Shown piece after piece: positions 25,209 to 57,545 of a stretch of DNA of 64,000 nt (the stretch's first letter is position 1; each line of letters begins with the position of its first letter). This stretch comes from Rubellicoccus peritrichatus (GTDB lineage Bacteria > Verrucomicrobiota > Verrucomicrobiia > Opitutales > Cerasicoccaceae), in contig NZ_CP136920.1 in assembly GCF_033100135.1 (NCBI RefSeq), positions 5,637,001-5,701,000 of the forward strand. Reading direction: 5' to 3'. The notes beneath the pieces are model-generated. The model saw only the letters and a program-made list of their open reading frames with translations. It did not search any database and had not been told where the DNA came from. Both the position numbers and the translations under genes were made by a program.

Positions 25209-25441
25209 ACAGAAAATGGCTTTAAAAGTTAGTAATTGTCGCAATTTCAATTGCAGACACCGTGATAGCACCAAATAGACAATTTATTGGCAAGCCTATT
25301 CATGATTTCAGGCCATTTTTTTATAGAATCCTGTATCTATCGGTCAGGATGCAGCTAGAAATTCTCAGAATATTACCCAATACACTCCTCACCTTTACCT
25401 GACCCATTTGAGGAGCCTGAAAAGGCGCCCTACCTTAATAA

Positions 25442-28177: not shown

Positions 28178-28324
28178 GATTGCTTTCCGGGGGGACATCT
28201 TGAATGCCATGAGAAAAAGTTCAACCCTGGAAAAATTAGGAACTAATAGGAAAACCAATACAATAAATAGTTAATCCCAGGGCCAACGGACATTCAATTT
28301 AATCATTTTGGTACACAGTTCTTA

Positions 28325-31300: not shown

Positions 31301-31435
31301 CATATCAACAGCAAGACTGCCAGAAGCACCACCTGCAGCCGTTCCCAAAGCGCCTCCTAAAAAACCTCCCAAGGCGGAGCCCGCCAGGCCGAAGCCCACA
31401 ACCAAGGAACGACGCAGTATCTCTTCAGTCTCCAT
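28325..31435 (-). CDS. STAND-like P-loop NTPase with glycine-zipper N-terminus
   Basis: 1036 residues from ATG 31435. An in-frame TTG at 31477 with AGGAA seven bases upstream is a serious alternative, and numbering here is from it. Residues 24-58 form a Gly/Ala-rich zipper-like hydrophobic segment (VVGFGLAGSALGGFLGGALG). Residues 105-155 and 255-300 are coiled coils rich in Lys, Asp, Leu and Gln. The NTPase has Walker A GEGGVGKSR (362-370) and Walker B TLIVVDYAA (408-416). The C-terminal 450 residues are helical without a recognised repeat. The layout (effector-like membrane segment, NTPase switch, helical sensor) fits STAND/NLR-type signalling proteins. No exact family was recognised. Confidence 0.72.
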   Translation of the reverse strand: METEEILRRSLVVGFGLAGSALGGFLGGALGTAAGGASGSLAVDMFLRSGRKWEEYRLNYAGVPVGDHVRLLFVRALRDATVSCVADYQLQKYPDRANRFQDEYASKIKALDKLRKRLRKDHDKLEKEAQKSRKALDKLGLDEIELLGCIDSGNQNQSESVSSEASAWAGQMLMSIQAALTDAPEVLEELLQFLEEKLPERIAKVFVEWLKTDNPLANKAWRTFQLWSNQIALQEIRQLGKNADQKQQELLAKLEELNRPLDELIQQSKSQHDTFLEKFRELAQWRHEPALIPIEEPETESNELTLRALEYQRQWLPWQEHSKAEKARDELTRFMDDPRGFLWWGVIGEGGVGKSRLALQLCRDFIAEGWSAGFIQRHWLEANCARPFLPSKDTLIVVDYAALRHEDLWRLMANLADCQNKATLDTSQGRVRVLLLERPNTFAFRTKRDESRAEVQQVRKWLYQRREEEDDTEVGKTLGEVGLGAEGVWLKDEESLWLEPPSTAEEQREILLDVMERLKPDTPVDIQQADDEAFWKTVDRLTAHGRLLYLQLIARIIIEDGSISLLQKEDQVDLLDRILDMEIQRRWLRVIEGNCQEHGLKGQGHEILACVLRYIGIATLCHSLPLSPPTNETEKLYWEESCGVALSGERSDVFIEAVNESINGIFHTNTELTMLEPDLLGERLLMQLVKSDQCNALLKGRSTKTTALGKKVSAILDPSKIIATALAWKEAAVIETFSRLLRDFPTDPAFGQWLVSAWAEYDENLANVAPAGLGFISSTLIFRVQNTDFNWIADKLKSILPDDPDEILLVYKQIIYISSAYASDPNALVLNQLVWLDEGKLTAGQCKQLMSILAIGSYCAASLEAWDYFKLCVGRLMRVSGIDNVMGDELIDLIFCECAVLAMSYHGCIGSIQGMEEWGECLLDTIGNHSENLIFSLLLVSAAVIAIRSHAKDTSFRKVGHWGNYLIEISNKYNDSLIAQVFFDYNHAERAALPKIFLNQRFGLFRRLRSAPGPMSIQILSSEGANIEHAMTPRYS

Positions 31436-31570
31436 AACAGTGTTGAGAAAAATTGGCACATCGCTCTTGATTCGCAAGAGGAATTCCTATCAGTAAAGAT
31501 ATATAACTAATCACATATATGAATCTTCAAATACCTCCAAGGCTTCTATAGAATAGCCTCGTAACAGACA

Positions 31571-34076: not shown

Positions 34077-37000
34077 TTACTTACCTATCGCAGTAAAGTT
34101 AAATGCAGTGTTTTGAGGGTTCCCATTTGGACTGCGAATTTTTATAATCGTATTCGATACATTTTTACTGGTAATCATGACAATACGGACATCATTTTGA
34201 CCTGTAATCGGCGTTACTGTCACGCTGTAGGAATTCGAGGTTGTAAACGATTCCGACCACTGAATGTTGTATTCTCCAGTAGTATTTGTTGTTTTGATGA
34301 TGGTATAACCCGTGCCATTGGTCGTTCCATTGGTGCCGTTCGTTTGTCCATATAGGACTCTGGTTCCTGCGGCGCCACTCTCAGTTGACACATAATCATC
34401 TGCGAGCTTCTCTGCGGTGACCGCACTGTCCTCAATTTGATCTGTTTTGATGGCATCCTCTGCGATATCTTCCGTTATAATCGTCCCATTGAAAATTTTA
34501 TCAGTCGTTACGGCATTATTGCCGAGCCTGTTATTACTGACAGCAGAAAGAGCAATGTTAGAAGTAGCGACAGCCCAAATCCCGAGGTCGTTGGAATTAA
34601 TCGTCCCATCTTGAATGTTCGTTGAATGAACTGCATTGTTGGCCAGCTTCTGATCAGTCACTGCATCATTCTGTAACTGCAGAGTGTCTACACTGTTATT
34701 GGCAAGATCATCTGTAGTAATGGAATTATTGGCAATTCTTGCTGAGTTGATCGCATTGCTGGCGATTTGATTTCCAGTGATTGTTCCATCTGCAATCTTG
34801 TCCGCAGTTACGGCCTTGGGGGCCAGGAGAGCTGTGAAAATATGACCTTGGACAATCTTTGAGGCACTAATGGAGCGATCGGCAATCTTGGCAGTGAGGA
34901 TGCTGCCGTCGGCAATGGTCGAACCATCCATGCTCCCCGCTGGCAGCGTGGCCGTCCCTGTGACGTTAAGATTCAGGATATCGACGGTTTTGTCCTCCTG
35001 AGCTACGAACACGTCCGTTCCGTCGGAGCTTCGCATGCGGAGTATCCCTCTAACGCTTAACTCACCCGGGATGGACACCCATGATTCCTGGTTCACAGCA
35101 TCACCGCGCTTCCCCCATCTGAGCGCCAGGAAGGGCTCCGCTGAACCCGACGGGAAAATCCCCAAACCACCGCCCAGTGGATGAGAAAGGACAGGCCCGG
35201 TAACAGTATCACTACCGAATTGTCGCCTACCATTCTCATAAATTGCCAGTCGTCCCTGGTGGTTATCAGAATGCAGGAAGAGAGTAGATTCGATATTCCA
35301 AAGGCTTAAGTTGTTCAAGACAGAGACATTTCCGGCAGAATTCCAGAACAAAGCAGGCGTTTCATTGCCTCCGGAGACAGTGCCAAGGATTCCTCCACCG
35401 TGACCAGTCAGCAGTACTTGGTTAACGGCATTAAAATTGGCGAGTGCAGGATTATCGTCGGTATTATTTTTGATATTCGGAAGGTTACCGAAGGTCAGGC
35501 CAGAAGGTGTCGTTCCATCACTGAGAAACTGATTCAATGAGGTGAGACCGTTATTACCATCCCAAGGTTGCAGGTTAAGTTTCTGGCCACGCTGCAAGCT
35601 GATATCGCCATTGTCGGCAAAGGTTCCCGCACCGATATTGGCAGCAGATAATGTTACCCCGGTTCCATTGCTGATGCTCAAGGTGGTGCCCGAAAGGCTT
35701 AGGTTCTGCAGCTCGTTGGTTGAGCTAGCGTCCTGATCGCTAACATCAAGAGTCGTCCATGCAGTTCCGCTTCCAGAGGACACCAATACCTGCCCACTGG
35801 TTCCTGCTTGTTGACTGGAATCAAGCAAACTACCGGTCACATAAGCATCACCATCGACATGGAGCTCGGCAGAGGGTTGCGACGTGCCGATGCCAATACG
35901 GTTTTGAGCGATCAGATCGACAGGGATCGTGTTAAATGCTTTTTCAATGATCGTCACGCCTTGGTCGTTTGGTGAAGCTGATGCTACATAGATGTAATCG
36001 CCGACCACGTTGACACCGAAAAGTTCATCGAGTCGATTAAAGCCGTTCAAACCATCAATCGCTTCACCCAGTAAAACTGGGTTCGCCTTATCACTAACAT
36101 CAATGATGGTTAAAGCGTTATCATGTGCGGAAACAACATAAGCGAAGTCATTGACAACCTGAACGTTCCGAATGCCCTGTAGGTTGTTAAACCCGCCAAC
36201 ATCATCTCGTATGACTGAAACGAGTTGAGGTGATGCTGGCGTTGAAACATCGATAATACTGAGCGCATTGTCCGCTTGCGCAGAGACAAAGGCATAATCA
36301 CCAGCAATCTCTACATCGAAAGCCCCCATTAGATAATTAAATCCCCCAACCCCATCCACGAGGCTGCTAACGTGTTGTGGTGAGTTTGGATTTGATATAT
36401 CAATTATACTTAATGCATGATCAGAAATAGCCGTTGTGTAAAGTAGATTACCCGCGACCTCGACATCTGTCACAAGCCTGAGGTGATCGAATCCATTCAC
36501 CCCATCTCGGATGACGCCGATGAGTTGCGGAGTTGCCGGGTTTGAAACATCTATGATTGAAATAGCGTTATCAAAAAATGCTGTCACATACAGTAGGCCA
36601 CCAGCGAATTGAGCCTTGTAGCATCCTCCAAGGAAGTCAAAGCCTCCAACGCCGTCTTGAAGCTTTGAGACAAAGGTAGGATTGGTCGGATCACTGACAT
36701 CAACTATAGTCAAGGCATTATCAGAGCGAGAACTGATGTAAGCGTAATTTCCCTCCAGTTCGATACCGCGGGCTGAGGCCAGACTATTAAAATTGGCGCT
36801 GTCGCCATCTTCAATCCGAGCCACTTCGATGGGACCGACTCCACCAAGGTCACTGACATCAAATACCATAAAGCCAATGTCCGTTACGACATAGGCGTAA
36901 TCACCACGGACTTCAATAACTCTTGCTAGGCCCAACGGAGCCGAGGCAAAAGAACCATCAAATATCTCAGCGCGATTACTTAGCCCCTGAAACACATCGT

Positions 37001-39173
37001 ATCCAGTGTTGCCATTGATCTGTAAAGCAGCGTTCGGAGAATTCCCCGACAAACCAATTCCCAAGCCCGCGCTGCTATCCAGAATCGAACTCACCGCACT
37101 CGAGAGATCCACACTTGAAAAACCAGTATTTGAATGACCGTCATCGATTGATAGGTCACTTCCATTCAGAGTAAGCATTTGCAGCTCATTAGTCGGGTCA
37201 GAGTCGTTGTCATTGACGTCCAGCGTCGTCCACTCAGTGCCAGTGCCAGTAGTCGTCAAGATTTGACCATTGGTTCCCGCTTGTTGGCTGGAATCAAGCA
37301 AGCTTCCCGTTACGAAAGCATCGCCGTCGACATGGAGTTCGGCAGAGGGTTGGGACGTGCCGATGCCAATACGATTTTGCGTGATCAGATCTACAGTGAT
37401 AGCGTCGATCGTCTGTTCAATAATCGTTACCGTATCATCGCCCACGGATGTCACGTAGATAAAGTCTCCTGAGACTTCGACTGCATAGGGCACTGAAAGC
37501 CTATTATAACCATTGTTCCCATCGAACACAGTCGCAATTAATTCTGGGTTCTGTTTATCACTGATATCAATCAAAGTTAACGCATTGTCCTGCTGAGCGG
37601 TAACATAAATAATATCATCCACGATTTTCATTTCGCTAGCCAAAGAGAGTCGATTAAATCCGTTAACGCCATCTCGAATTGCAGTCACCAGTGTCGGTGA
37701 CGTTGGAATTGAGACGTCTATTATGTTAATGGCGCTATCATCTCGCCCCGTGACAAACGCATAGTCACCGACCACTTCAACATCAAATGCGGCATCTAAA
37801 TAATCGAAGCCATCAACGCCATCCACCAATTCCGCTAACTTGACTGGAACACTTGGCGTACTGACATCAATGATCGTCAAGGCATCGTCATCGAATGCCG
37901 TCACATATAGCAAGTCATTGGCTATACTAACATCGCGTGCTCCAGCGAGTTGATCAAACCCTCCGACACCATCTTCAATAACAGTAACTAACTGAGGGTT
38001 GAACGGATCGCTAATGTTGACAACAGATACAGCGTTTTCACTGAGCGATGAAACAAAGGCATAGTCCCCAGACACCGCTATCTTGAATACCCCTGATAAA
38101 TGATTAAAACCATTAACATTATCCTCTAATTTGGATACAAAACTAGGATTCGCAGGGTCAGAAACATCGATAATGGTAACCGCGTCATCACCGGATGATC
38201 CGACATACGCATAGTTACCTACGATATCGATATCCCGTATTAAAGACAGTTTATCAAAATCACTGGTGCTTCCATCGTTAATCCTAACTAACTCAGACGG
38301 CCCCGCTCCGTTTAAAGCACTGATATCAAAAATCAATAGACTACTGGAGCCTGCGATGTAGGCATTATTTCCATCGACTTCAACCGCAAACGAGCTCCCC
38401 AAAGAGCCAGTCATAAAAGAGCCATTACGTATTTCAGCGATATTACTTAACCCCTGAAACACCTTGTACCCAGTATTGCCATTGATCTGTAAAGCAGCAT
38501 CCGGAACATTTCCATTTAAGCCAATTCCCAAACCGGAACTGCCATCGAGAATCGAACTCACCGCACTCGAGAGATCCACACTTGAAAAACCAGTATTTGA
38601 ATTACCGTCATCGATTGATAGGCCACTTCCATTCAGAGTAAGCATTTGCAGTTCATTATTCGGATCCGCATCTGCGTCGTCGATACTGACGCCAACGGCC
38701 AAGCTATTGGCTGTTGTCGCAACAGTGGCTACAGCAGCACTATCGGCAATGGTTGCCCTGTGCGCATGAGCCACAGGCAGGATGCGAATGCTCTCGATAA
38801 GATCGAACGGGCCACTGGCTCCACCTTCACTGTACCAGACACGTAGATAGAGAATGTCATTGTTCCATATATCACTGGGGAGTGCGATATTGCTAACCCC
38901 ACCCTCGCCTAACTCCAAGGCAAAGAGGCCCTTCGTAACCTGTAGTTCGTGACCGATGGAAGGTTCTGAACCGGATGTTGAAGTGCCATCATTTGACCAG
39001 TAAGAAACCGTCGGGCTCGTCGCATCATCAACAATGGCGAACTTAAAATGGCGTGGTCCTGTGGGCAACAAATTATCTTCAGAAACGCGGCCCTGGTAGG
39101 GTAAGGTATTAGTAATGGCAGCTGGTAGTAGTTGGCAAAATAACAGTAGAAACGGAATGATTAGTTTATTCAT
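34077..39173 (-). CDS. Giant secreted protein with two seven-repeat LVIVD propellers and a fibre-like tail
   Basis: 1698 residues with a signal peptide (residues 1-18). The N-terminal domain (about 20-140) is a common Verrucomicrobial opening (TNTLPYQGRVSEDNLLPTGPRHFKFAIVDD). Two homologous blocks of about 490 residues follow. Each begins NELQMLTLNGS-LSIDDG, has seven LVIVD-type repeats (YAFVxxxxDNALTIIDVSDPxxPxLV) and ends IGIGTSQPSAELHVDGDA. Seven repeats per block suggest two seven-bladed propellers. After a further beta-rich section come about 15 ten-residue repeats (ITxxxIAxNA type), then a Gly/Asn/Thr-rich tip resembling phage tail-fibre ends. No enzyme motif. Probably a surface fibre or adhesin. 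Confidence 0.8.
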   Translation of the reverse strand: MNKLIIPFLLLFCQLLPAAITNTLPYQGRVSEDNLLPTGPRHFKFAIVDDATSPTVSYWSNDGTSTSGSEPSIGHELQVTKGLFALELGEGGVSNIALPSDIWNNDILYLRVWYSEGGASGPFDLIESIRILPVAHAHRATIADSAAVATVATTANSLAVGVSIDDADADPNNELQMLTLNGSGLSIDDGNSNTGFSSVDLSSAVSSILDGSSGLGIGLNGNVPDAALQINGNTGYKVFQGLSNIAEIRNGSFMTGSLGSSFAVEVDGNNAYIAGSSSLLIFDISALNGAGPSELVRINDGSTSDFDKLSLIRDIDIVGNYAYVGSSGDDAVTIIDVSDPANPSFVSKLEDNVNGFNHLSGVFKIAVSGDYAFVSSLSENAVSVVNISDPFNPQLVTVIEDGVGGFDQLAGARDVSIANDLLYVTAFDDDALTIIDVSTPSVPVKLAELVDGVDGFDYLDAAFDVEVVGDYAFVTGRDDSAINIIDVSIPTSPTLVTAIRDGVNGFNRLSLASEMKIVDDIIYVTAQQDNALTLIDISDKQNPELIATVFDGNNGYNRLSVPYAVEVSGDFIYVTSVGDDTVTIIEQTIDAITVDLITQNRIGIGTSQPSAELHVDGDAFVTGSLLDSSQQAGTNGQILTTTGTGTEWTTLDVNDNDSDPTNELQMLTLNGSDLSIDDGHSNTGFSSVDLSSAVSSILDSSAGLGIGLSGNSPNAALQINGNTGYDVFQGLSNRAEIFDGSFASAPLGLARVIEVRGDYAYVVTDIGFMVFDVSDLGGVGPIEVARIEDGDSANFNSLASARGIELEGNYAYISSRSDNALTIVDVSDPTNPTFVSKLQDGVGGFDFLGGCYKAQFAGGLLYVTAFFDNAISIIDVSNPATPQLIGVIRDGVNGFDHLRLVTDVEVAGNLLYTTAISDHALSIIDISNPNSPQHVSSLVDGVGGFNYLMGAFDVEIAGDYAFVSAQADNALSIIDVSTPASPQLVSVIRDDVGGFNNLQGIRNVQVVNDFAYVVSAHDNALTIIDVSDKANPVLLGEAIDGLNGFNRLDELFGVNVVGDYIYVASASPNDQGVTIIEKAFNTIPVDLIAQNRIGIGTSQPSAELHVDGDAYVTGSLLDSSQQAGTSGQVLVSSGSGTAWTTLDVSDQDASSTNELQNLSLSGTTLSISNGTGVTLSAANIGAGTFADNGDISLQRGQKLNLQPWDGNNGLTSLNQFLSDGTTPSGLTFGNLPNIKNNTDDNPALANFNAVNQVLLTGHGGGILGTVSGGNETPALFWNSAGNVSVLNNLSLWNIESTLFLHSDNHQGRLAIYENGRRQFGSDTVTGPVLSHPLGGGLGIFPSGSAEPFLALRWGKRGDAVNQESWVSIPGELSVRGILRMRSSDGTDVFVAQEDKTVDILNLNVTGTATLPAGSMDGSTIADGSILTAKIADRSISASKIVQGHIFTALLAPKAVTADKIADGTITGNQIASNAINSARIANNSITTDDLANNSVDTLQLQNDAVTDQKLANNAVHSTNIQDGTINSNDLGIWAVATSNIALSAVSNNRLGNNAVTTDKIFNGTIITEDIAEDAIKTDQIEDSAVTAEKLADDYVSTESGAAGTRVLYGQTNGTNGTTNGTGYTIIKTTNTTGEYNIQWSESFTTSNSYSVTVTPITGQNDVRIVMITSKNVSNTIIKIRSPNGNPQNTAFNFTAIGK
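35785..38665. repeat. Internal ~1.47-kb duplication in the LVIVD gene
   Basis: DNA at 37009-37190 and 38476-38657 is nearly identical over long stretches, as are 35811-35925 and 37284-37398. The offset is about 1467-1473 bases (489-491 codons). This is a duplication of a whole propeller block, with the flanking segments better conserved than the blades. Confidence 0.75.
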
Positions 39174-45855: not shown

Positions 45856-48800
45856 TTATGGTAAATTGACACGAACGTGATAGAATCGACGGCCTCCGGG
45901 CTGACTCAAAGGAGATCCCCCGGTAGTCGAACCATCATCAGTCCAAACTTCGGAAGAACCTGTGCCTTGAATCGTGTTGCTGGCGGGATTCCAGTTCACA
46001 AGATCATGGCTGTAGTAAACCTGATAAACGCGGTCGCGCCGTGTAGGAAATGTAATGGAATAACCAGTCGCCGGTTGCTCACTGACTGTGCTGCTGAATA
46101 CGTCGGGGAGCGTTGGATTGGTTCCAAGGATATATTCATCTTCGTTATTCAATGAGTCGTTGTCGGGATTATCTGATGGCGAGGATTGCCCAAGGGCATC
46201 CAATCCAAAAGCTTCTACCCAGGCGTCTGGCAAACCATCAGCATTGCGGTCGAAACTAAGCGCGATTCCAGTTTCAAAACCTAACTCAAAACTGAAATCA
46301 TCACTCGTTGCTACGAGCTCGACCTGCTGAGTCTGCGCCTGATTGCGAAGATTCAACGTATCAAATTCACCAAGATCATCATCAGTCGCTGCGCCATTTA
46401 GAGCAACATCACCAGTCAAAGGATTGATAAAAGCACGCACCGTTGCACCTGAAGCTTCGTTATGGATATTGATCTCGCCAGTGACTTCTTCCAGCACCGT
46501 CAGGTTATCCTGCCCGTTGACCAGGAGATCCCCAAGATTAGGCGAAAGCCCAAAGCGCAGGAAGATGCGATCCACCACTGCAGGATTCAAACTGTAGGTT
46601 GCAATGAGCGCATTGCCGCGTGGTTCCAGTGTGATCTTCTTTGTAAAGTGCGTTGAGCTATCCTGGAAGCTCCAACCGGTTTCACCACCCGCAACAGTGA
46701 AGACGGCATAAAGATTATTGATCTGCGCCGAAGAGTCTTCCACCGGATCAGCCTTCTCAACAAACCAGTCCTTAAAACCTGAGGTGCGATAAACGGAATC
46801 TTCCTCCTCTGTGTCGGAACCAGAAAAGCTGAGGAAGTTACCAACTACCTGAAAGATCTCTCCTGTATCAATATCACGCAACCATGCACCTGTCATACGT
46901 CCGCCAATACGCTCAAACAGAACAAAGAGGCGATCGTTGAAAATGAGATATTCAACTTCACCGTCTAGGTCGATATCCTCGCTGGTCGCAACTGCTGTGT
47001 CAAAGTAAGTATCACTGGCGGCAGCATTAGCCCATGTATCCACTCGAGCATAAACTGCGGCAAAGCGTGCCTGCGACTGTGAATCTCTCGCGAAAGCAGC
47101 CAAGTCTTCACTGCCCGTGACCGGATTGATGAAGTCACCCGTACTGAACTGAGAAAGGTCATTGTTGCTGCTATTATGAAATGCCGTCTGGAACACTGCG
47201 GCGTGAAGCGTACCATATGCGATATCCTGCAAACTCGTATTGGTCAGGCTGACACCCTGCAAGGCATTCCAGGTATCGTTGATCAAGCCTGATTGCCCAA
47301 TCTGACCATAGTTATCTCCAAGCGACACACCCGGGCGAATTTCAAGAGTCGTTGACTCCAAACCTTGGAATGCAGGGCTACCTGCCTTGCCAAAGAACCA
47401 ATTGTCGTAATTTTCTGCTGTCGCATGGTCGACAAAAAGTTGTGCTGTTTTCTCAAGCGTTAAACCAGTGCCACGATCAACGACTCCCCAGATATCACCA
47501 GCACCATCCGAAGGCTGAGAGAGATCAATCTCACCATCAAGAATCTGTTGGTGAGTAACCAACTGTATCCAGGGACGACTGGCAAGCCAGGCGATATTCG
47601 AATCATAAGCATCGGCACTGGCACTTTCTCCAAAGCTTTCCCAATTTGCAAACCAGGTAACGACCTGATCCTGTGTTCCACTACGCGCCTTCCGGCCAAG
47701 CAGCTTACGGAAGGCATGCGATGGCCCTTTTTGATCACCATCGCCAATGGAGAATAAATCCGCACGGTTATTGATTGCGAAAATATTCAGGCCGTTGATT
47801 TGATTAATGCGATAACCATCATCACTCAAAGCACTAGACCGCCCGAACCACTTCCAAAGGTGGCGGAATTGATCCACATAGGTGGCATCGAAACCTACCC
47901 GAACGATCTGCTCCAGTGTCGAACCATCGAGCACGCGCTCGGCCGGCCAGAGGATATCCGTGGATGGATTTGCACCATAGATACCCCCTAGCAAGGCCGA
48001 AGCGCGGCTGATGTTATCGGAGTGGTAGGAATCCGGAAAGTAAGGTAAAACGTGATCTGAGTAAGTGGAACCAACCAGGTCGATAACCCCGTCCGTGGCA
48101 AGCGTGCCGATGCTGTTGTTAAATTCTGGACCATCGCGCCATGGTTTGTTTGCAGCGGGATCGACCTTTGCCCATTGAATTGCAGAAGCTAAAGTAGCCG
48201 TGGTATGAAGACTCAACGGTGCAAGAACGTCACCTCCAGCTGAAGTTTCATTATATGCTGAATGCACATCCAGAGGCCGATGATAGCCTGCTCCTTCACC
48301 ATCGTTGATCAGCTCCTGAATCTCATTACCAGGTTTGATCGACTGGTTACCATGTATTACAGCGGCAACCTTGGTCCGTTTCCCACGGTCATTACTTCCA
48401 CCTCTGGAAAACCATCCGCGTAGCACGCTGTTTGAGCCAGCAATCTCTGGTTGAGCTCGAAAATGATTCTCCGCAAGGAAGTCATCAAAGATCGTGTCCC
48501 GAATATCACTGCGACCACCAATATCACCCGCGCCAACCGGCGAATTTTGAGTACCATCGCGGGTCGTAAAAACCTGAAAATTGAGCGAATCAGGATTGAG
48601 GCCATTCCAACCAGCATCAATCAAGGCCTGACGTGAGATCGAAAATTCAACGGCATCGAAGTCGCTGCTAAAGTAAGCCTGACCAAAACCATTGGCTGCG
48701 GTCTGATCGCGGCGCTCGACACCGAAACCAGAAAGATCCTGTCCAATAGCTGTAGTGTTACTACCGACATTAGTATCGACCAGAACAGCCCCGACGTTAC

Positions 48801-51800
48801 CGGAGTAGACGGCAACAATCGCCTCCCAACGCATCTCTGTGCCAGTATCAATCTCATCGGGCAAAGCATACTCGCCGACAGATGTGTTGCCGGTATCGAT
48901 AACAACATAAATATCGAGATTCGCCTGTTCGGCGAAAGGCATTAGGTCAAAGAAATCAAGACGGAAGTTCAGCGTGCCATCGCCACTCTGAGTCGGATCA
49001 CCTCCATCTCGGAAGTAGAATGCAACAATATCACGGGATGTATCGAAACCATCAAATGCAAGATAAGTATCGCCGCCTTGGTTATTGGTACCGTCGCCTT
49101 CGTTTTCGTCGAGGACAAGCAGGTCATCGATCTTCCAATCAGTGAATGCTCTGTCATTGGTGACTCCACCAACTGTGATCTGATCCGCATCAGGGAATGG
49201 ACCAATAAAAATACGGTCAGCTGGAGGAGGAGCTCCGGTGTCGGGAACCAAAGGGTGTGTGCCGTTGGCAAGCTCAGTGCCATTATCAAAGGTATCATTA
49301 TCCGGATCGGCGTTGATACCGTTGCGAGGAACACCACTTCCATTATCAGCAGTGCGGAGGCTATTAGTTCCATCGTCAAGCGGATCAAGGCCGTTACCTG
49401 CTTCCCATCCATCTGGCAATCCATCACCGTCCGTATCAGGATTCAACGGATCCGTTTCAGTCCATGCTTCACCAACCTGCCAGATGCGGTCCTGGTTAGT
49501 ATCACCTGTCACATAGCTGTCTGCATCTTTGTCTTCACCATTTCCGTCGGAAAGACCATCACCGTCAGAGTCCGCATTGTTAGGATCCGTTTCAGTCCAT
49601 GTCTCGCCAGGGTTCATGATACCATCCGGCCAGTCACGAGCGAGAGTCGGACCATTCGCAGGGTCCAGGGAAGCACCATCACCATCGACCCAACCATTGC
49701 GGTTCCGGTCTTCAATACCATCATCCAATCCGTCACCGTCCGTATCAGGATTTGTCGGGTCAGTATATGAGCCAAAAACCAACCGAGTGCGATCACCACC
49801 ACGTGATGCACTGTCGATGTCGAGAACGCTTCCTTCATTGTCAAGGGTGTTAAAGAAAGGTGGGTCCAGGTCGGGAAGAAAGTTAGGAAAGCCGTCACCG
49901 TTGGTGTCCGTAGTTGTATCGGTGTCAGCGGAGATCGCAGTGCGCCAGCCCACCTCAAGACCATCCGGCAAAAGGTCGCCATCGGAGTCAGGCTGTGTTG
50001 GCAAACTAAAGCCATAGGCGACAGTCGCAATATGGACTTCACCATTGGTCCAGCTTTCGACATTACCTTCAGGCAAAGGCGTATCGGTTGTCTCATTGGC
50101 ATCGAGCAAACCATCGTCATCGCTGTCATCATCGATTCCGTTGTCCACCAACTCACGATAGATCACCGGAACCGTGCGCGTGGTAAAATTGTCTGGAGTA
50201 CCGTCGTTGTCGATATGAGCCTCAGCACGAAGCCCATAAACGCCAGGCACCTTGACACCCAGAGGAAAAGTCCAGGTAAAGTCCCAAAAGCGTTGATTAC
50301 CCTCTTCGGCGTAGTAAGCAGGAGCCAAGACGGCGTCGTAACTTTCATTGCCATTCAGATCAACAAACGGCTCACCTTCATCGTAAGCGTCATTGTCATT
50401 TTCATCAGTGAAACTCTCACCGTCGGGATTCGTTCGAATCGGCGTAAAGGTCGTTGCAGCCGATGGCCCAAAATCGAGTGATACATCAACCTCGTTTACA
50501 CGATTATCGGTGCGAACCTGAACGTTATATACACGATCAGCGATATCGGCGGGCAATGGTACATCGGGAAAAACGATCTCAAAAGTGCGTCCTTGCTCCG
50601 TCTGAATCGGAGGCGAGATAAATATGACGGTTGGTTTGGAACTCGGTAATGCCTTGACTATGCGTGAAGTGATCAACTCAGGAAGCCCTTCGACATTATG
50701 CAGGATGGTGATATCATGCAAAAACTCCGGATCACCGTTGAAGAGATTAGGCAGCGTCCAGGCGAACTCATGAAAGTCAGACGTTACATTGTAATTTATC
50801 GTCGCGTTCGATGTATCCTGAACAATTCCTGCATCGCTATCTTCAGTGCTTCCAATTCTGACCGTAAATTGCGACTCGAGCTCCTCTTGAGTAAAGCCAT
50901 CGGCCATCTCTTTGGTGAAATAAACCTTCATCACATAGTTGTCGTCAACCGGATCCATATCGCGCTCAGGGAAGCGGACAAACATACGGCGATCCGGGCC
51001 GTCAACGGTGTGCGTCGAAGTCAACAATGTGTAGTGGCCAGTTATTGCATCAGCAGGATCGAGGCTGAAGTCAGCAAATCCGGCAGAAGAAAACTCACGT
51101 ATAATTACATAAATAGTAGCATTTCCACTTGCCGGGATATTGATGTAATCAAAACGAAATTCACGTGGCTGATCACTATCCACGAAAAGATTGGGTGTTA
51201 CCTCGGTCGCCTGAACCCAATTGACAGCCAGATTACCGTCCCAAATGCCATTTTCATTCAAGTCTTCGAACGCTTCACCGTTATCCCATGTTTCGTTGGC
51301 GTTTGCATCAGTGAAAGGTTCAAAGCCTGCGCCATTACCAACCAGGACACGCGTGTTGACATCGTCATTGGAAGCATCTCCATCGGCAATATGATACCAG
51401 ACCTCACGCACGGTTCGATCTGTCCGAATGACCGCACCGTATTGAGAGCCACCGAGGACATCACTTGGTTGCGGAAAAGCGATTTCAGCCTGGGGACGCT
51501 GTGCATCATAATAGAAAGTCTGCTTGATTGTGTTGTAGATAGGCGAGAAGCTACCGCGCTGGAGGAAGGCGCGGGCTTGGATCATATGCATACCTTCGGT
51601 CAAACCGGTCTGCTTTTTACCATAGTCGTTATGTGGGTACCACTCGATCGTCTCCGCGTTGAAATCATCGATCTCAAATACTGTCATCATGGATAACTTC
51701 GTATCAACCTCACTGGAACCACTCGGAAAAACACTGCCAATCGGATTAACACCATCGCTGTCCTTGTAGACACCAATCTTATAAGTCAAAGTCGCACCCG

Positions 51801-54525
51801 CTGTTGGTTTTGGAATATCAGCGACGCCCCACCAATCCGTAGTACCACCATCATCGTTGTGGCTGAAGGAAAGATTTGTGGTCTGAGTGGAACCAGTCCC
51901 TTCTCCACCGGCACCTTCCGGGAAAGTACCATCAGTCGTATAATAGACGACCATATTGAAACCAGCACCAACGCTGTTGCTTTTAGCCCAAATAGAAATT
52001 GTGTCAGCATTTTCTACATACTGCTGAGTGGCACCACCCGGAGGTGAGCCGCCGACTGCTGTATCAGGCTCATGATACAAAAACGAAGCAACCGTCCCAC
52101 TCTTGTTATCAAAGTCATTATCATCGTGATCCGAACTGACACTGTAATTAAAGGACCCACTGCCAATGGTCGTTGAATAGGTTCCTGCGCCTTGACTACC
52201 GAATTTATTACGTAAGGTATCAACGGCAGCAAACTTCTCAGCATACTGGCGATGAATGAAACCACCTTGCTCAAAGCCGAGGAAAGTGTCCAGGCTGACA
52301 GCAGGAGGGTTATCGCGAAGCTCACCCGTAGTCGCACCAATGCCCATTTGCGAATTCAAATCTGCGCCACCAAGTTTAAAGAGAACGTTTTCGGCAGAAC
52401 CATCAAAGCGCGCAACGAAACGCAAGTCGTCGCCATCGGTGACACGTGGGATATCAATGTGGTAAGTATAATCAGTCGGATCATCATCCGGTAGACCCAG
52501 TGGATTGTATCCTGGATCGCCGTCAGGACCATCACGACGCGGGATGCTCACAGTGCTCACAGCCTGGTCGTTCTGATAAATTTGCAGACCATTGCCCGGC
52601 CAGAGTGGAGCTGGGTCAGGGTTTTTCCAGGAGAAGATAAAATAACCGCCCGGCGGAACGACAACAGAGTTCAGGTTCGAAGCGTAGGTGTAGAAGCCGA
52701 CCTGACTTGGGCCACCACGCGCATACTGATAAAGATATGCATCAGCACCACCGCCAGTCGCTGGAAAACTGGTGCCGAACGATCTTGCCTGGCCAGAAGC
52801 AAAGTTATCGTTCATCATAAAAAGCAAGGAAACTGCCTCACCGTCATTGCCAGCCCCCTGACTGTAATCAAGGCGTTCGTATGCAATAAAGTCTGCATCA
52901 GCCCAGACGCCCTTCTGTGAACCACGGGCAAAATGCTCATGAATATAAGTTAGGTTTGGCACTCGGCCATCGGCAAACTGTCCGAGAAAATTTGTATTGG
53001 CATGACGCGGGAAAGCACCGCCGGAGTCACCAAGAGTCTCAGCCTGATAATTACCATCCGTATAAATCAAGCCGATACCAGCACGTGTCGCATACATCGC
53101 ATGCTGCAACTCACGACGAGCGGCAAAATCATTGTCATGGCTCTGTGCGTGCATGACTGCAACGCTTGGAGCGAATCCACCACTACCAGGCTGGTCCAAT
53201 CCTTGTAATCCAGCAAAGGGACTGCCGAGTGTGCCATTGAGTTTACTGCGAAGATCGTTATCAACGAGACGCATCCCAGCATCCACGTATTCACCAAAAC
53301 CGGGAGGCTGCCCCAAGTGCTCACCGAACATCATGGCATCATCACGCCCCTGTTCAGTATTAAAGACAGAATCACGGTGATTGTTCCAGTCACTAAAACC
53401 GCGTGTTATATTGAACTGTTCCTGGCTTTGCCCCAGGTAACCGGCTGAGGATGCATCTTTGTCTCCTCCATTCTGCTGACCAAAGAAATAACTCGGCACA
53501 TGCTTAACCGCATCCAGACGATAGCCATCTGCATTGGTTCTATCGAGCTGCCAGCGGGCGGCACGAATGAGCAAACTGTTCACATCCTCCACCACAGGAT
53601 TGCCCATGTTGTAAATACCATCACCAGCACCTTCGGTGCGGTCAGGGTTGTCGGGAAAGAGCCCTAGGTCGTCAAACGATTCACTCGCTTCACCGGCATC
53701 GTGCTGACCATTCGCATTGGTATCATCCCAGGAGAACTTACCATCACCGGCACCTGTGTTCGAAGGGCCCCAACCTGTATCGGTGAAAGGCTCCTTATTC
53801 GCAAAAGTGAATACGTTAAACGCAATACCAGTCGATGGATTCGTCACTGAGATCGGTAAATCGGTGTCCAAATAATATTCAGGACTATCGGGCTGACGAA
53901 CAAAAGAAAACTTGGGATGATCGTCTCCCTCGCTGGGACCGAAGTTGGTATTCGGATTTTCGTGAGCGATATCAATCAAGTCCGCCAGTCCAAGATTCTG
54001 CACCTGCCACGTACTGTTCCAGTCACGTGTGTTGTCCCATTTGCGATAAAAGCCTTCATCTGTCAGTCGAAGGTGAAAATCCTCCGGGACAAAACCTTCA
54101 TAGACATCCAAAGGGGTATTCTCATTGAACCCTGGAATATCAAAGGCATTGTGATTCATGATATTATCGAAGTAGATACGAATACCAAAGCGATGTGCTG
54201 TCGCGATCAGCCTTAGAAGCTCCTCTTCCGTACCGTATCGAGTCCGAACTGAGCCCCGGTTGTTTTTACTGCCCAAATCAAATCGATCCCACAGGTCATA
54301 CCCGACAGAAAGCCCGCCAGAACCCTTGGTCGGAGGAGGCAACCAGATCGAGCCATAACCCGCCTCGGCCAGCTCCGGGATTTTGTCCGTTAGCTCAGCA
54401 TAATTCGTATTAAAATACTGAACCATGAATTCTGCCCGAGCAGGCATCGCCAAAATGAACAATGCGACACAAAACAGAAAAAAGATCTGTCTGAAAAAAT
54501 CCTTATTGGGCTGGTAGGATAACAT
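45856..54525 (-). CDS. Giant secreted GH13-GH57-like fusion enzyme with TSP3 calcium repeats
   Basis: 2889 residues. The signal peptide ends at about residue 31 (AMPARAE). GH13 domain (33-600): DNIMNH (120-125), GYRLDAV with nucleophile Asp338, Glu402 in MMFGEHLG, His463-Asp464 in QSHDND. Beta-sandwich modules follow, with DxNxNxxxDxGE calcium-type loops near 268, 1080 and 1390. Thrombospondin-type-3 repeats occupy about 1460-1765 (DTDGDGLDDG, DSDGDGLSDG, DTDGDGLPDG). A GH57-like domain spans about 2040-2440: AAVIHGNQS, LVGSTYSDHVLPYFP, nucleophile-type Glu in WPAERV, and FANWESFGE, where the usual Asp reads Asn. The end is a Verrucomicrobial C-terminal module (YQVYYSHDLVNW). First gene of the operon. 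GH57 call is by motif only. Confidence 0.83.
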   Translation of the reverse strand: MLSYQPNKDFFRQIFFLFCVALFILAMPARAEFMVQYFNTNYAELTDKIPELAEAGYGSIWLPPPTKGSGGLSVGYDLWDRFDLGSKNNRGSVRTRYGTEEELLRLIATAHRFGIRIYFDNIMNHNAFDIPGFNENTPLDVYEGFVPEDFHLRLTDEGFYRKWDNTRDWNSTWQVQNLGLADLIDIAHENPNTNFGPSEGDDHPKFSFVRQPDSPEYYLDTDLPISVTNPSTGIAFNVFTFANKEPFTDTGWGPSNTGAGDGKFSWDDTNANGQHDAGEASESFDDLGLFPDNPDRTEGAGDGIYNMGNPVVEDVNSLLIRAARWQLDRTNADGYRLDAVKHVPSYFFGQQNGGDKDASSAGYLGQSQEQFNITRGFSDWNNHRDSVFNTEQGRDDAMMFGEHLGQPPGFGEYVDAGMRLVDNDLRSKLNGTLGSPFAGLQGLDQPGSGGFAPSVAVMHAQSHDNDFAARRELQHAMYATRAGIGLIYTDGNYQAETLGDSGGAFPRHANTNFLGQFADGRVPNLTYIHEHFARGSQKGVWADADFIAYERLDYSQGAGNDGEAVSLLFMMNDNFASGQARSFGTSFPATGGGADAYLYQYARGGPSQVGFYTYASNLNSVVVPPGGYFIFSWKNPDPAPLWPGNGLQIYQNDQAVSTVSIPRRDGPDGDPGYNPLGLPDDDPTDYTYHIDIPRVTDGDDLRFVARFDGSAENVLFKLGGADLNSQMGIGATTGELRDNPPAVSLDTFLGFEQGGFIHRQYAEKFAAVDTLRNKFGSQGAGTYSTTIGSGSFNYSVSSDHDDNDFDNKSGTVASFLYHEPDTAVGGSPPGGATQQYVENADTISIWAKSNSVGAGFNMVVYYTTDGTFPEGAGGEGTGSTQTTNLSFSHNDDGGTTDWWGVADIPKPTAGATLTYKIGVYKDSDGVNPIGSVFPSGSSEVDTKLSMMTVFEIDDFNAETIEWYPHNDYGKKQTGLTEGMHMIQARAFLQRGSFSPIYNTIKQTFYYDAQRPQAEIAFPQPSDVLGGSQYGAVIRTDRTVREVWYHIADGDASNDDVNTRVLVGNGAGFEPFTDANANETWDNGEAFEDLNENGIWDGNLAVNWVQATEVTPNLFVDSDQPREFRFDYINIPASGNATIYVIIREFSSAGFADFSLDPADAITGHYTLLTSTHTVDGPDRRMFVRFPERDMDPVDDNYVMKVYFTKEMADGFTQEELESQFTVRIGSTEDSDAGIVQDTSNATINYNVTSDFHEFAWTLPNLFNGDPEFLHDITILHNVEGLPELITSRIVKALPSSKPTVIFISPPIQTEQGRTFEIVFPDVPLPADIADRVYNVQVRTDNRVNEVDVSLDFGPSAATTFTPIRTNPDGESFTDENDNDAYDEGEPFVDLNGNESYDAVLAPAYYAEEGNQRFWDFTWTFPLGVKVPGVYGLRAEAHIDNDGTPDNFTTRTVPVIYRELVDNGIDDDSDDDGLLDANETTDTPLPEGNVESWTNGEVHIATVAYGFSLPTQPDSDGDLLPDGLEVGWRTAISADTDTTTDTNGDGFPNFLPDLDPPFFNTLDNEGSVLDIDSASRGGDRTRLVFGSYTDPTNPDTDGDGLDDGIEDRNRNGWVDGDGASLDPANGPTLARDWPDGIMNPGETWTETDPNNADSDGDGLSDGNGEDKDADSYVTGDTNQDRIWQVGEAWTETDPLNPDTDGDGLPDGWEAGNGLDPLDDGTNSLRTADNGSGVPRNGINADPDNDTFDNGTELANGTHPLVPDTGAPPPADRIFIGPFPDADQITVGGVTNDRAFTDWKIDDLLVLDENEGDGTNNQGGDTYLAFDGFDTSRDIVAFYFRDGGDPTQSGDGTLNFRLDFFDLMPFAEQANLDIYVVIDTGNTSVGEYALPDEIDTGTEMRWEAIVAVYSGNVGAVLVDTNVGSNTTAIGQDLSGFGVERRDQTAANGFGQAYFSSDFDAVEFSISRQALIDAGWNGLNPDSLNFQVFTTRDGTQNSPVGAGDIGGRSDIRDTIFDDFLAENHFRAQPEIAGSNSVLRGWFSRGGSNDRGKRTKVAAVIHGNQSIKPGNEIQELINDGEGAGYHRPLDVHSAYNETSAGGDVLAPLSLHTTATLASAIQWAKVDPAANKPWRDGPEFNNSIGTLATDGVIDLVGSTYSDHVLPYFPDSYHSDNISRASALLGGIYGANPSTDILWPAERVLDGSTLEQIVRVGFDATYVDQFRHLWKWFGRSSALSDDGYRINQINGLNIFAINNRADLFSIGDGDQKGPSHAFRKLLGRKARSGTQDQVVTWFANWESFGESASADAYDSNIAWLASRPWIQLVTHQQILDGEIDLSQPSDGAGDIWGVVDRGTGLTLEKTAQLFVDHATAENYDNWFFGKAGSPAFQGLESTTLEIRPGVSLGDNYGQIGQSGLINDTWNALQGVSLTNTSLQDIAYGTLHAAVFQTAFHNSSNNDLSQFSTGDFINPVTGSEDLAAFARDSQSQARFAAVYARVDTWANAAASDTYFDTAVATSEDIDLDGEVEYLIFNDRLFVLFERIGGRMTGAWLRDIDTGEIFQVVGNFLSFSGSDTEEEDSVYRTSGFKDWFVEKADPVEDSSAQINNLYAVFTVAGGETGWSFQDSSTHFTKKITLEPRGNALIATYSLNPAVVDRIFLRFGLSPNLGDLLVNGQDNLTVLEEVTGEINIHNEASGATVRAFINPLTGDVALNGAATDDDLGEFDTLNLRNQAQTQQVELVATSDDFSFELGFETGIALSFDRNADGLPDAWVEAFGLDALGQSSPSDNPDNDSLNNEDEYILGTNPTLPDVFSSTVSEQPATGYSITFPTRRDRVYQVYYSHDLVNWNPASNTIQGTGSSEVWTDDGSTTGGSPLSQPGGRRFYHVRVNLP

Positions 54526-54777: not shown

Positions 54778-55392
54778 ATGAAAAAAGTTATTGTTCTATT
54801 ATCGTTATTTGCAGTATCTCAGGCACATGCGGCCAGTGGCATTTTTGGAGCCTATTTGAGTTTTGATGTGGATTCCGTGATATCCACTTATGGGGAGAAT
54901 CAGCCAGGCCCCAACACCACAACCGGCTACAACGGATCCGATCTTGGAACCGTCAATACAGGTGAAAGCGTAACACTATCTTTCGCCGAAGTTTTAACCT
55001 TTAAAAACGGCGGAAGTGATGTGACTGGAGCCAGCATAAACTTCCGTGTCTACGAAACCGGTTCGCCAAGTGGAGTTTTTACAGAAACAGGAATCAATTT
55101 TGGATCAAATGCCCCATTCACAGACATTGCTGGTAACAACTTCACCAATGCCGGCGACCAAAGCTGGAACAATATTACCACCAGCACGGATGTTGCCAAT
55201 GGACTTTCCGCAGGGAATTACACGGTAGAAGTATTCTGGAAAGCGACCAGCACAGATGGTGATCACTTCGTGAACAATGGTGGTTCCAACTATACAGCCA
55301 CTTTTGAAGTTGTCCCCGAACCTTCGACTTATGCTGCTTTGTTTGGGCTGGCCGTTCTTGGGCTTGCTGCCTGGAGGCGTCGCCGTTCATAA
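54778..55392 (+). CDS. PEP-CTERM sorting-domain protein
   Basis: A 204-residue exported protein with a signal peptide (residues 1-19, ending QAHAA). The middle is a beta-rich domain (SFAEVLTFKNGGSDVTGASINFRVYETG). It ends with VPEPSTYAALFGLAVLGLAAWRRRRS, the full PEP-CTERM tag: PEP motif, one helix, Arg cluster. In other bacteria this tag is recognised by an exosortase (EpsH) and such proteins end up in the extracellular matrix or surface. No exosortase gene is in the window. It is followed after 33 bases by a second PEP-CTERM gene. Confidence 0.9.
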   Translation: MKKVIVLLSLFAVSQAHAASGIFGAYLSFDVDSVISTYGENQPGPNTTTGYNGSDLGTVNTGESVTLSFAEVLTFKNGGSDVTGASINFRVYETGSPSGVFTETGINFGSNAPFTDIAGNNFTNAGDQSWNNITTSTDVANGLSAGNYTVEVFWKATSTDGDHFVNNGGSNYTATFEVVPEPSTYAALFGLAVLGLAAWRRRRS

Positions 55393-55425
55393 CACGCTGT
55401 TATAGATTTTAAAACGATCCCTACC

Positions 55426-56202
55426 ATGAAAACTATTGTATTGCTTGCTGCGACGCAGCTAGCTGTTGGTGCAGTCTTTGCGCTCACAGCCTCAGATAAC
55501 GCATCCAACTACGGCGGTGGTTGGACGAATGGTTCCAATCAGGGAACTGGTTTTGGCACATGGAGTCTCAATAGTGATGGCGGCACAAGTGGCTTCGCAG
55601 GAAATTTTTTAGGAGATTCAACAGCAGGTGCTGGAGATATCAATACAGCTGGTAACTCCTTCGGTCTCTTTGCAAATCAAGATGCTGGTGCCTTTTCCAC
55701 TGCCACTCGCTCTTTCTCTTCTGCCCTGACAACGAATGATCAATTTACGGCTCAAATAGCCCTGAACTTCGACAACGGAAACAAAGGTTTCAACCTTCGA
55801 ACTGGTACCGATAATATTCTAGGTTTCAATGTGGGAAGTGGTGGTAGCATCAACACCGCTTTCACTGACAATCCGATCACAGCTCAGTATGACTATGGTG
55901 GTAATGATGCAGTCATTGACATTAGCATTCTCGTCACATCAGCAAGCTCCGTCCAATATACTGTTTCGCGAACTTCTTCAGCAGGCCTTCAAGGCATACT
56001 ATTCAATGGATCCATCACAGGTATTGCCGGATCCATTGACAACTTCGAGTTCTATAACAGTGGCACGGATAATGGTGACCCTCAAAACAATCTCTACTTC
56101 AACAGCATTGCAGTAAACCCAGTACCGGAACCAAGCTTCTATGCTGCCCTTGGCGGTATTGTTGCCTTGGGCATTGCTTTACTTCGCCGCCAACGCAGTT
56201 AA
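55426..56202 (+). CDS. PEP-CTERM sorting-domain protein
   Basis: A 258-residue exported protein: signal peptide (residues 1-21, ending VFALT), then a Gly/Asn/Thr/Ser-rich beta domain (GNKGFNLRTGTDNILGFNVGSGG ... YTVSRTSSAGLQGILFNG), then VPEPSFYAALGGIVALGIALLRRQRS, a complete PEP-CTERM tag. Same strand as, and 33 bases after, another PEP-CTERM gene; a strong terminator follows. Function unknown beyond surface or matrix location. Confidence 0.9.
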   Translation: MKTIVLLAATQLAVGAVFALTASDNASNYGGGWTNGSNQGTGFGTWSLNSDGGTSGFAGNFLGDSTAGAGDINTAGNSFGLFANQDAGAFSTATRSFSSALTTNDQFTAQIALNFDNGNKGFNLRTGTDNILGFNVGSGGSINTAFTDNPITAQYDYGGNDAVIDISILVTSASSVQYTVSRTSSAGLQGILFNGSITGIAGSIDNFEFYNSGTDNGDPQNNLYFNSIAVNPVPEPSFYAALGGIVALGIALLRRQRS

Positions 56203-56342: not shown

Positions 56343-57545
56343 CTACCCTGTTGTGGTATTACCGCCGAACTTGCGGCGAAAAGCATGTGGCGTCATCCCT
56401 CGAGTTTTTTGAAACAAGCGAGCAATATTTGTATCCGTATCATAGCCCATTGCATATGCAATCTCAGCAATGGTGAGATTCGTCTCAAGGAGTAGTCTCG
56501 CAAAATGCTCCACCCTACGCTCACGAATGTAAGCAGATATCGTCTGTCCTGTAACGCTTTTGAAATGGTCATACAAAGCACGGCGCGATAAACTCACTGC
56601 ATTGACCACATCATTCACCTCGATGGGATAATTGATCCGTTCATTGATAAATGCAATTGCGGTAGAAACATCGGGATCGAAAGTCAGCGTCGCATCTGTA
56701 GAACGACGCGCAACGACACGCAACGGCTCAACGACTACGTTCACTGGCTTGGTTTGTTTATGCGATCGCCTCGTTCCTCGACTTAGCTGACGTGCGAGTT
56801 GCTCGGCCGCATCGTAGCCTGCACGCTCTGTATTCAACGAAACACTGCTCATTGGTGTCGTTGTCAAATCACAAACGGCCTCATCATTGCCGACACCAAT
56901 CAACGCAATCTCCTCAGGGATCGAACGCCCTACAGCCAAGCATGCCTCCTGCACCAAAAGCGAGAAGTCATCCGTACAAACCATCAGCCCGGTCTGCGAC
57001 GGCAAATCCCGTAGCCATTGCTGCAAGGTTTCAAACTCATCATTACGATTTAAAAACTCATCTCCTTGAGAACTCTCAAAGATGGACACCTCATGCCCAT
57101 ACTCAGACAAAGTCTCACAAAAACCCTCGCAGCGCAGGCGTGACCAGAAGAACAAAGCGTTCATGCCACAAAATGCAAAATGCCGCAGACCACTTTCGTA
57201 CAAATGCTGGGCAGCCATTCGCCCTACCGCATAATCATTGACCACGATGTTCGACAGCCCAGATCGGGGCTCAGTCGTCGGCACATACATAACAGGCATC
57301 GGCAAGTCCAATAGTTCGTCGTAATGCTCAGATTCGCGAATGATCAGACCATCAGGCTGCCAAGTACGAACTAATTCGACCGGCGACACATGTTGATCGG
57401 GCAAATACGGAACATGCCGATAAAACTGCCAAGGCCCATGTAAATTCGTGTACTTTGCAATGCCTCGCAGCAAACCACGCTCATAATTGCGCGTGCCTTC
57501 CATAAGCAACGCAATACGCGGGGCAGATGGCAGCACTGACTTCAT
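56343..57545 (-). CDS. XylR-type transcriptional regulator (LacI-like sensor + AraC HTH)
   Basis: A 400-residue regulator. Residues 8-275 resemble a LacI/periplasmic-binding-protein ligand domain (RIALLMEGTRNYERGLLRGIAKY, GLSNIVVNDYAVGRMAAQHLYESGLRHFAFCG, EIALIGVGNDEAVCDLTTTPMSSVSLN). The C-terminal 110 residues are an AraC double helix-turn-helix (SLSRRALYDHFKSVTGQTISAYIRERRVEHFARLLLETNLTIAEIAYAMGYDTDTNIARLFQKTRGMTPHAFRR). This is the architecture of E. coli XylR. It probably senses a sugar and controls the divergent transporter-catabolic operon that starts 168 bases away. Confidence 0.93.
   Translation of the reverse strand: MKSVLPSAPRIALLMEGTRNYERGLLRGIAKYTNLHGPWQFYRHVPYLPDQHVSPVELVRTWQPDGLIIRESEHYDELLDLPMPVMYVPTTEPRSGLSNIVVNDYAVGRMAAQHLYESGLRHFAFCGMNALFFWSRLRCEGFCETLSEYGHEVSIFESSQGDEFLNRNDEFETLQQWLRDLPSQTGLMVCTDDFSLLVQEACLAVGRSIPEEIALIGVGNDEAVCDLTTTPMSSVSLNTERAGYDAAEQLARQLSRGTRRSHKQTKPVNVVVEPLRVVARRSTDATLTFDPDVSTAIAFINERINYPIEVNDVVNAVSLSRRALYDHFKSVTGQTISAYIRERRVEHFARLLLETNLTIAEIAYAMGYDTDTNIARLFQKTRGMTPHAFRRKFGGNTTTG

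Follow-up and report, generated by a model that had tools for sequence, protein, structure and literature searches.

A GH13 and GH57-like fusion protein of 2889 residues from Rubellicoccus peritrichatus with Asn at the GH57 acid/base position

The window analysed here is a stretch of 64,000 nucleotides from Rubellicoccus peritrichatus. An open reading frame on its minus strand, starting with ATG, encodes a protein of 2889 residues (315 kDa, pI 4.2) that carries a GH13 alpha-amylase module and, about 1,500 residues further along the same chain, a GH57-like domain (Table 1). From its sequence the protein is predicted to be secreted and to bind calcium. Residues 661-1010 are possibly carbohydrate-binding or Ig-like modules. 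Thrombospondin-type-3 (TSP3) calcium repeats had been predicted to follow the GH13 domain, and five TSP3-like repeats were seen, spanning residues 1467-1712. The beta-rich module of residues 1778-2045 leads into the GH57-like barrel, as it does in standalone GH57-like proteins.

Table 1. Coordinates of the fusion gene, its modules and key residues, and the adjacent GH13-type genes in the window.
Feature	Residues	Position	Strand	Evidence
GH13 and GH57-like fusion protein, 2889 aa	1-2889	45856..54525	-	ORF, composition
Putative signal peptide (...FILAMPARA)	1-31	54433..54525	-	read from sequence
GH13 alpha-amylase module	31-660	52546..54435	-	PF00128, PDB profile, Foldseek
GH13 nucleophile	Asp338	53512..53514	-	motif position, family alignment
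GH13 acid/base	Glu402	53320..53322	-	motif position, family alignment
GH13 transition-state stabiliser	Asp464	53134..53136	-	motif position, family alignment
Beta-rich region	661-1010	51496..52545	-	weak match (E 7e-4) to N-terminal domain of alpha-amylase 8jnx
Linker modules of unknown type	1011-1460	50146..51495	-	EF-hand-like loops at 1073, 1088, 1374 and 1389
TSP3-like calcium repeats	1461-1777	49195..50145	-	five clear repeats
Beta-rich module before GH57-like barrel	1778-2045	48391..49194	-	model, standalone-protein comparison
GH57-like barrel and helical part	2046-2505	47011..48390	-	PF03065, homologue matches, model, Foldseek
GH57 nucleophile position	Glu2196	47938..47940	-	invariant, 82/82
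GH57 acid/base Asp position	Asn2294	47644..47646	-	codon AAT; Asp in 36/82 of family
C-terminal beta-rich domain	2506-2745	46291..47010	-	as in GH57 4-alpha-glucanotransferase
C-terminal tail, Asp/Asn-rich TSP3-like stretch	2746-2889	45856..46290	-	read from sequence
Divergent GH13-like protein, 1285 aa		41971..45828	-	27 bp downstream of fusion; invariant Asp763, Glu792, Asp851
GH13 cyclomaltodextrinase/maltogenic-type enzyme, 626 aa		40070..41950	-	adjacent gene

Two GH13-type genes follow the fusion on the same strand within 30 bp, and the three genes form an amylolytic cluster. The 1285-aa GH13-like gene stands immediately after the fusion in 30 of the 61 loci with enough sequence. The copy in the window showed no PF00128 match, 15 of 17 relatives did, and the protein possibly represents a new GH13 subgroup. 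Just downstream of the cluster, a 1698-aa protein has LVIVD beta-propeller repeats (34077-39173, minus strand). Two small proteins with PEP-CTERM-like tails are encoded divergently from the fusion gene (54778-56202, plus strand), and several relatives have proteins resembling these upstream of the fusion gene. A regulator with LacI-type sugar-binding and AraC-type DNA-binding domains (56343-57545, minus strand) possibly controls the cluster. The large ORFs at 22344-31477 (minus strand), with a KAP-family P-loop NTPase at 25442-28258 and a weak STAND NTPase match at 28325-31477, are possibly a defence locus. The same genome encodes a second secreted GH57-like protein (L047:4099-7596, minus strand), which is 1165 aa long and bears the motifs HNHQP and FFPTEMAF.

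The GH13 head was recognised by PF00128 above the curated cut-off (E 2.6e-12), and comparison with PDB profiles gave 3bc9/1mwo and the Termamyl-like and Pyrococcus alpha-amylases with E values down to about 1e-36. The structure model of this head was of only moderate confidence (pLDDT 68); with it, Foldseek indicated a (beta/alpha)8 barrel, with E values of about 1e-14 to many GH13 amylases and 5.6e-15 to the Bacillus licheniformis alpha-amylase. The full catalytic triad was found at the residues given by the original prediction. Across the family, Glu402 and Asp464 were present in all 65 aligned rows, and Asp338 in all 63 rows that reach its position. Family, fold and invariant triad together strongly indicate that the GH13 head is a working liquefying-type alpha-amylase.

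The identity of the C-terminal domain was assessed by profile and by structure. PF03065 matched residues 2138-2301 of the fusion with E 1.6e-5, a narrow pass at 24.8 bits against the curated cut-off of 21.2, and it also matched 21 of 23 homologues. An AlphaFold model of residues 1778-2745 (pLDDT 82, pTM 0.85) gave a GH57 4-alpha-glucanotransferase as its best Foldseek match (E 1.8e-18), with GH57 branching enzymes, amylopullulanases and the related GH38 mannosidases also among the leading matches. With GH57 enzymes as the top matches, a GH57-type (beta/alpha)7 barrel with a helical part is supported, and both the profile and the structure prediction thus bear out the proposed GH57 relationship. 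A profile of the 23 homologues had a single, weak match among solved structures, the Thermococcus litoralis 4-alpha-glucanotransferase (E 0.14); in that weak alignment PERV pairs with TERV, the nucleophile motif, and DQ falls opposite the VDD motif. All four predicted GH57-like motifs were located, HGNQS starting at residue 2058, GSTYSDHVLPYFP at 2152, WPAERV at 2193 and FANWESFGE at 2292. GH57 conserved regions CSR1-4 are discernible but altered (HGNQ, GSTYSDH, WPAERV, FANWESFGE), while the assignment of CSR5 is tentative.

Residue 2294 is Asn where GH57 enzymes have the catalytic acid/base Asp. The codon had been predicted near 47648-47650, and the actual AAT lies at 47644-47646. The placement of CSR4 comes from one verrucomicrobial GH57 pair of the alpha-amylase type (L152/L153, E 3.5e-8), in whose profile alignment FANWESFGE pairs with LFMDYETFGEH with no shift, and Asn2294 therefore sits on the catalytic Asp, as had been claimed. 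A GH57 branching enzyme and two further GH57 groups did not place CSR4, their profile alignments with the family being too weak or covering too little. No catalytic Asp shifted elsewhere was seen in the alignment. The possibility that it had moved to a neighbouring site was rejected, as position 2297, which is D or E in 76 of 82 family members, is Ser in the window copy and Ala in three others, and is Ala in the standalone GH57-like proteins. Lacking the acid/base Asp, a residue that helps to define GH57 enzymes, the domain is best named GH57-like.

We then considered the spread of the family. Homologues of the GH57-like part occurred in 38 of 388 sampled genomes of the phylum, mainly in ORFs of about 2,600-3,300 aa, and one further class had them in 21 of its 57 sampled genomes. 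When 84,980 species genomes were scanned, 143 relatives emerged, the best 80 of which are labelled Verrucomicrobiota, Kiritimatiellota or Lentisphaerota, save for a few unplaced bacterial bins; Cerasicoccus arenae, in the same family as the window's organism, carries one. A single chain joined the GH13 and GH57-like parts in 54 of the 58 GH57-like ORFs that were complete. The original prediction that the two families are rarely joined in one chain is thus misleading, the architecture being widespread and conserved in Verrucomicrobiota and their relatives. Among the four exceptions, at least two (L128 and L147) have the GH13 part in a separate ORF that lies upstream and adjoins or overlaps the GH57-like one, the pattern expected from a frameshift. 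The C-terminal third resembles an entire GH57 protein, apparently fused to a GH13 amylase early in the lineage.

The letter at position 2294 varied widely among 82 family members: Asp in 36, Asn in 17, His and Met in 7 each, Ala, Gly and Ser in 4 each, Trp in 2 and Pro in 1, so that 46 of the 82 lack Asp. The two copies with Trp are L110 and L142, and an aromatic residue would suit sugar stacking. In the same 82 members Glu2196, Gln2219, His2222 and His2450 were invariant and Asp2218 nearly so. A tree from which the motif columns had been left out requires at least nine switches between Asp and non-Asp. The nearest relative of the window copy (74% identical over the GH57-like part) likewise has Asn. 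This pair was saturated for dN/dS, and the estimates therefore came from more closely related pairs in other parts of the family; those without Asp (H, G, N/H, M or N) gave values of 0.10-0.24 in the GH57-like domain, which is therefore maintained and not decaying. The GH57-like head evolves faster than the GH13 head, the mean majority fraction being 0.61 against 0.74, and its identity to relatives was about 48% against 62%. All the outgroup standalone GH57-like proteins have the acid/base Asp. With a long outgroup branch, and with Asn or other letters on the deepest branches of the fusion, the sequences would fit either an Asp kept along the backbone with many losses, or an early loss followed by regain.

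Taking these results together, the protein is probably a secreted amylase whose GH57-like head, in this copy, binds alpha-glucan rather than cutting it. A binding role for this copy is plausible and is the reading we favour; the Asp is still present in roughly half the family. A calcium-stabilised, secreted two-headed protein would degrade alpha-glucan, its GH13 head cutting as a liquefying-type alpha-amylase and a complete GH57 protein (beta module, barrel, helical part and beta-sandwich) being appended via the TSP3 linker. With its acid/base lost by Asp to Asn, the GH57-like head is most likely unable to hydrolyse normal alpha-glucosidic bonds. Its former active-site cleft probably grips the alpha-glucan chain and would keep the substrate near the GH13 head, and the two neighbouring GH13 enzymes would process the resulting products. 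In Asp-bearing copies the second head may cut, and the 36 members with Asp may mean that part of the family is fully active.

The binding reading does not fully explain why Glu2196 is strictly retained even in copies whose acid/base position holds Trp, Met or Pro, since a module that only binds would have no need of such strict retention, and this speaks for the alternative that the head remains an enzyme. Glu2196 would then act as nucleophile, with another residue, water or an activated substrate replacing the acid/base; plant myrosinase of family GH1 has Gln at that position. The invariant cleft residues with near-invariant Asp2218, the purifying selection and the Asp kept in 36 relatives all agree with altered catalysis. 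On the other hand, Met, Ala, Gly, Trp or Pro can occupy the site in family members with no conserved local substitute, and the acidic residue common at 2297 is replaced in the window copy and three others. Ordinary alpha-glucans, moreover, need acid assistance for the leaving group by the established mechanism. We regard this alternative as unlikely.

The fusion could also be ancestral with two active heads, the GH57 head now drifting, in this lineage among others, towards a role that is redundant or purely structural. The lower conservation and identity of the GH57-like part and the recurrent loss of Asp fit such drift, but it is hard to square with the low dN/dS of copies without Asp and the four invariant cleft residues; nor was any decayed or truncated head found among the complete ORFs. 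These observations make drift a rather improbable account. Distinctly improbable, in our view, is a GH57-like family of retaining glycosidases in which the nucleophile is under strict selection and the acid/base is free to vary while the head still catalyses a reaction coupled to the GH13 head, for example transglycosylation or one on an unusual activated substrate. An assembly artefact, to which very long repeat-containing ORFs are prone, or a sequencing error giving Asn, was rejected as scarcely credible, since the same architecture is common to independent genomes (54 of 58 complete ORFs) and the nearest homologue also has Asn.

If the favoured binding reading is true, the family would be a phylum-scale case of two unrelated amylase folds in one secreted chain, one head toggling its acid/base. 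Closely related copies with Asp and with Asn, His or Met would be natural test pairs for the change from glycosidase to binding module. The fusion points to a starch-degradation strategy of Verrucomicrobiota, and no description of a GH13 and GH57-like fusion was found in the open-access literature (subscription papers and CAZy lay outside the search).

Compared with known systems, the GH13 head shares signature motifs, triad and fold with the liquefying alpha-amylases of Bacillus licheniformis (1bli), Pyrococcus woesei (1mxd) and Halothermothrix (AmyB, 3bc9), but the fusion has a large insertion with an EF-hand-like loop before the catalytic Asp and about 2,200 additional residues. The top structural match of the GH57-like head, the T. 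litoralis 4-alpha-glucanotransferase (1k1w/1k1x/1k1y), shares the barrel and the C-terminal beta-domain, and its TERV nucleophile motif aligns with Glu2196. However, the GH57-like head is 11% identical to it, lacks the acid/base Asp, has an extra N-terminal beta module and is joined to GH13.

The standalone secreted GH57-like proteins of Verrucomicrobiota (L039-L046, 1,100-1,260 aa) share their layout with the fusion's C-terminal portion (profile E about 1e-128), but they carry no GH13 and all have the acid/base Asp (VFDDWEA). PF03065 misses them, though profile-profile comparison ties them to the fusion and both Glu and Asp are kept. Against solved structures their profile gave EF-hand matches only.

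GH57 homologues without one or both catalytic residues are already known, and such "like" proteins are judged very unlikely to work as typical GH57 enzymes (PMC6037648). One Opitutaceae sequence of GH57 was left unclassified there, on its own branch (PMC6037648), and could be a member of the fusion family. The pattern of those "like" proteins, with catalytic residues lost in some members and the full set kept in others (PMC6037648), is also seen here. In contrast to them, the present protein has its GH57-like unit in one predicted secreted chain of about 2,900 aa with a GH13 amylase that looks active, and its family loses the acid/base only, never the nucleophile.
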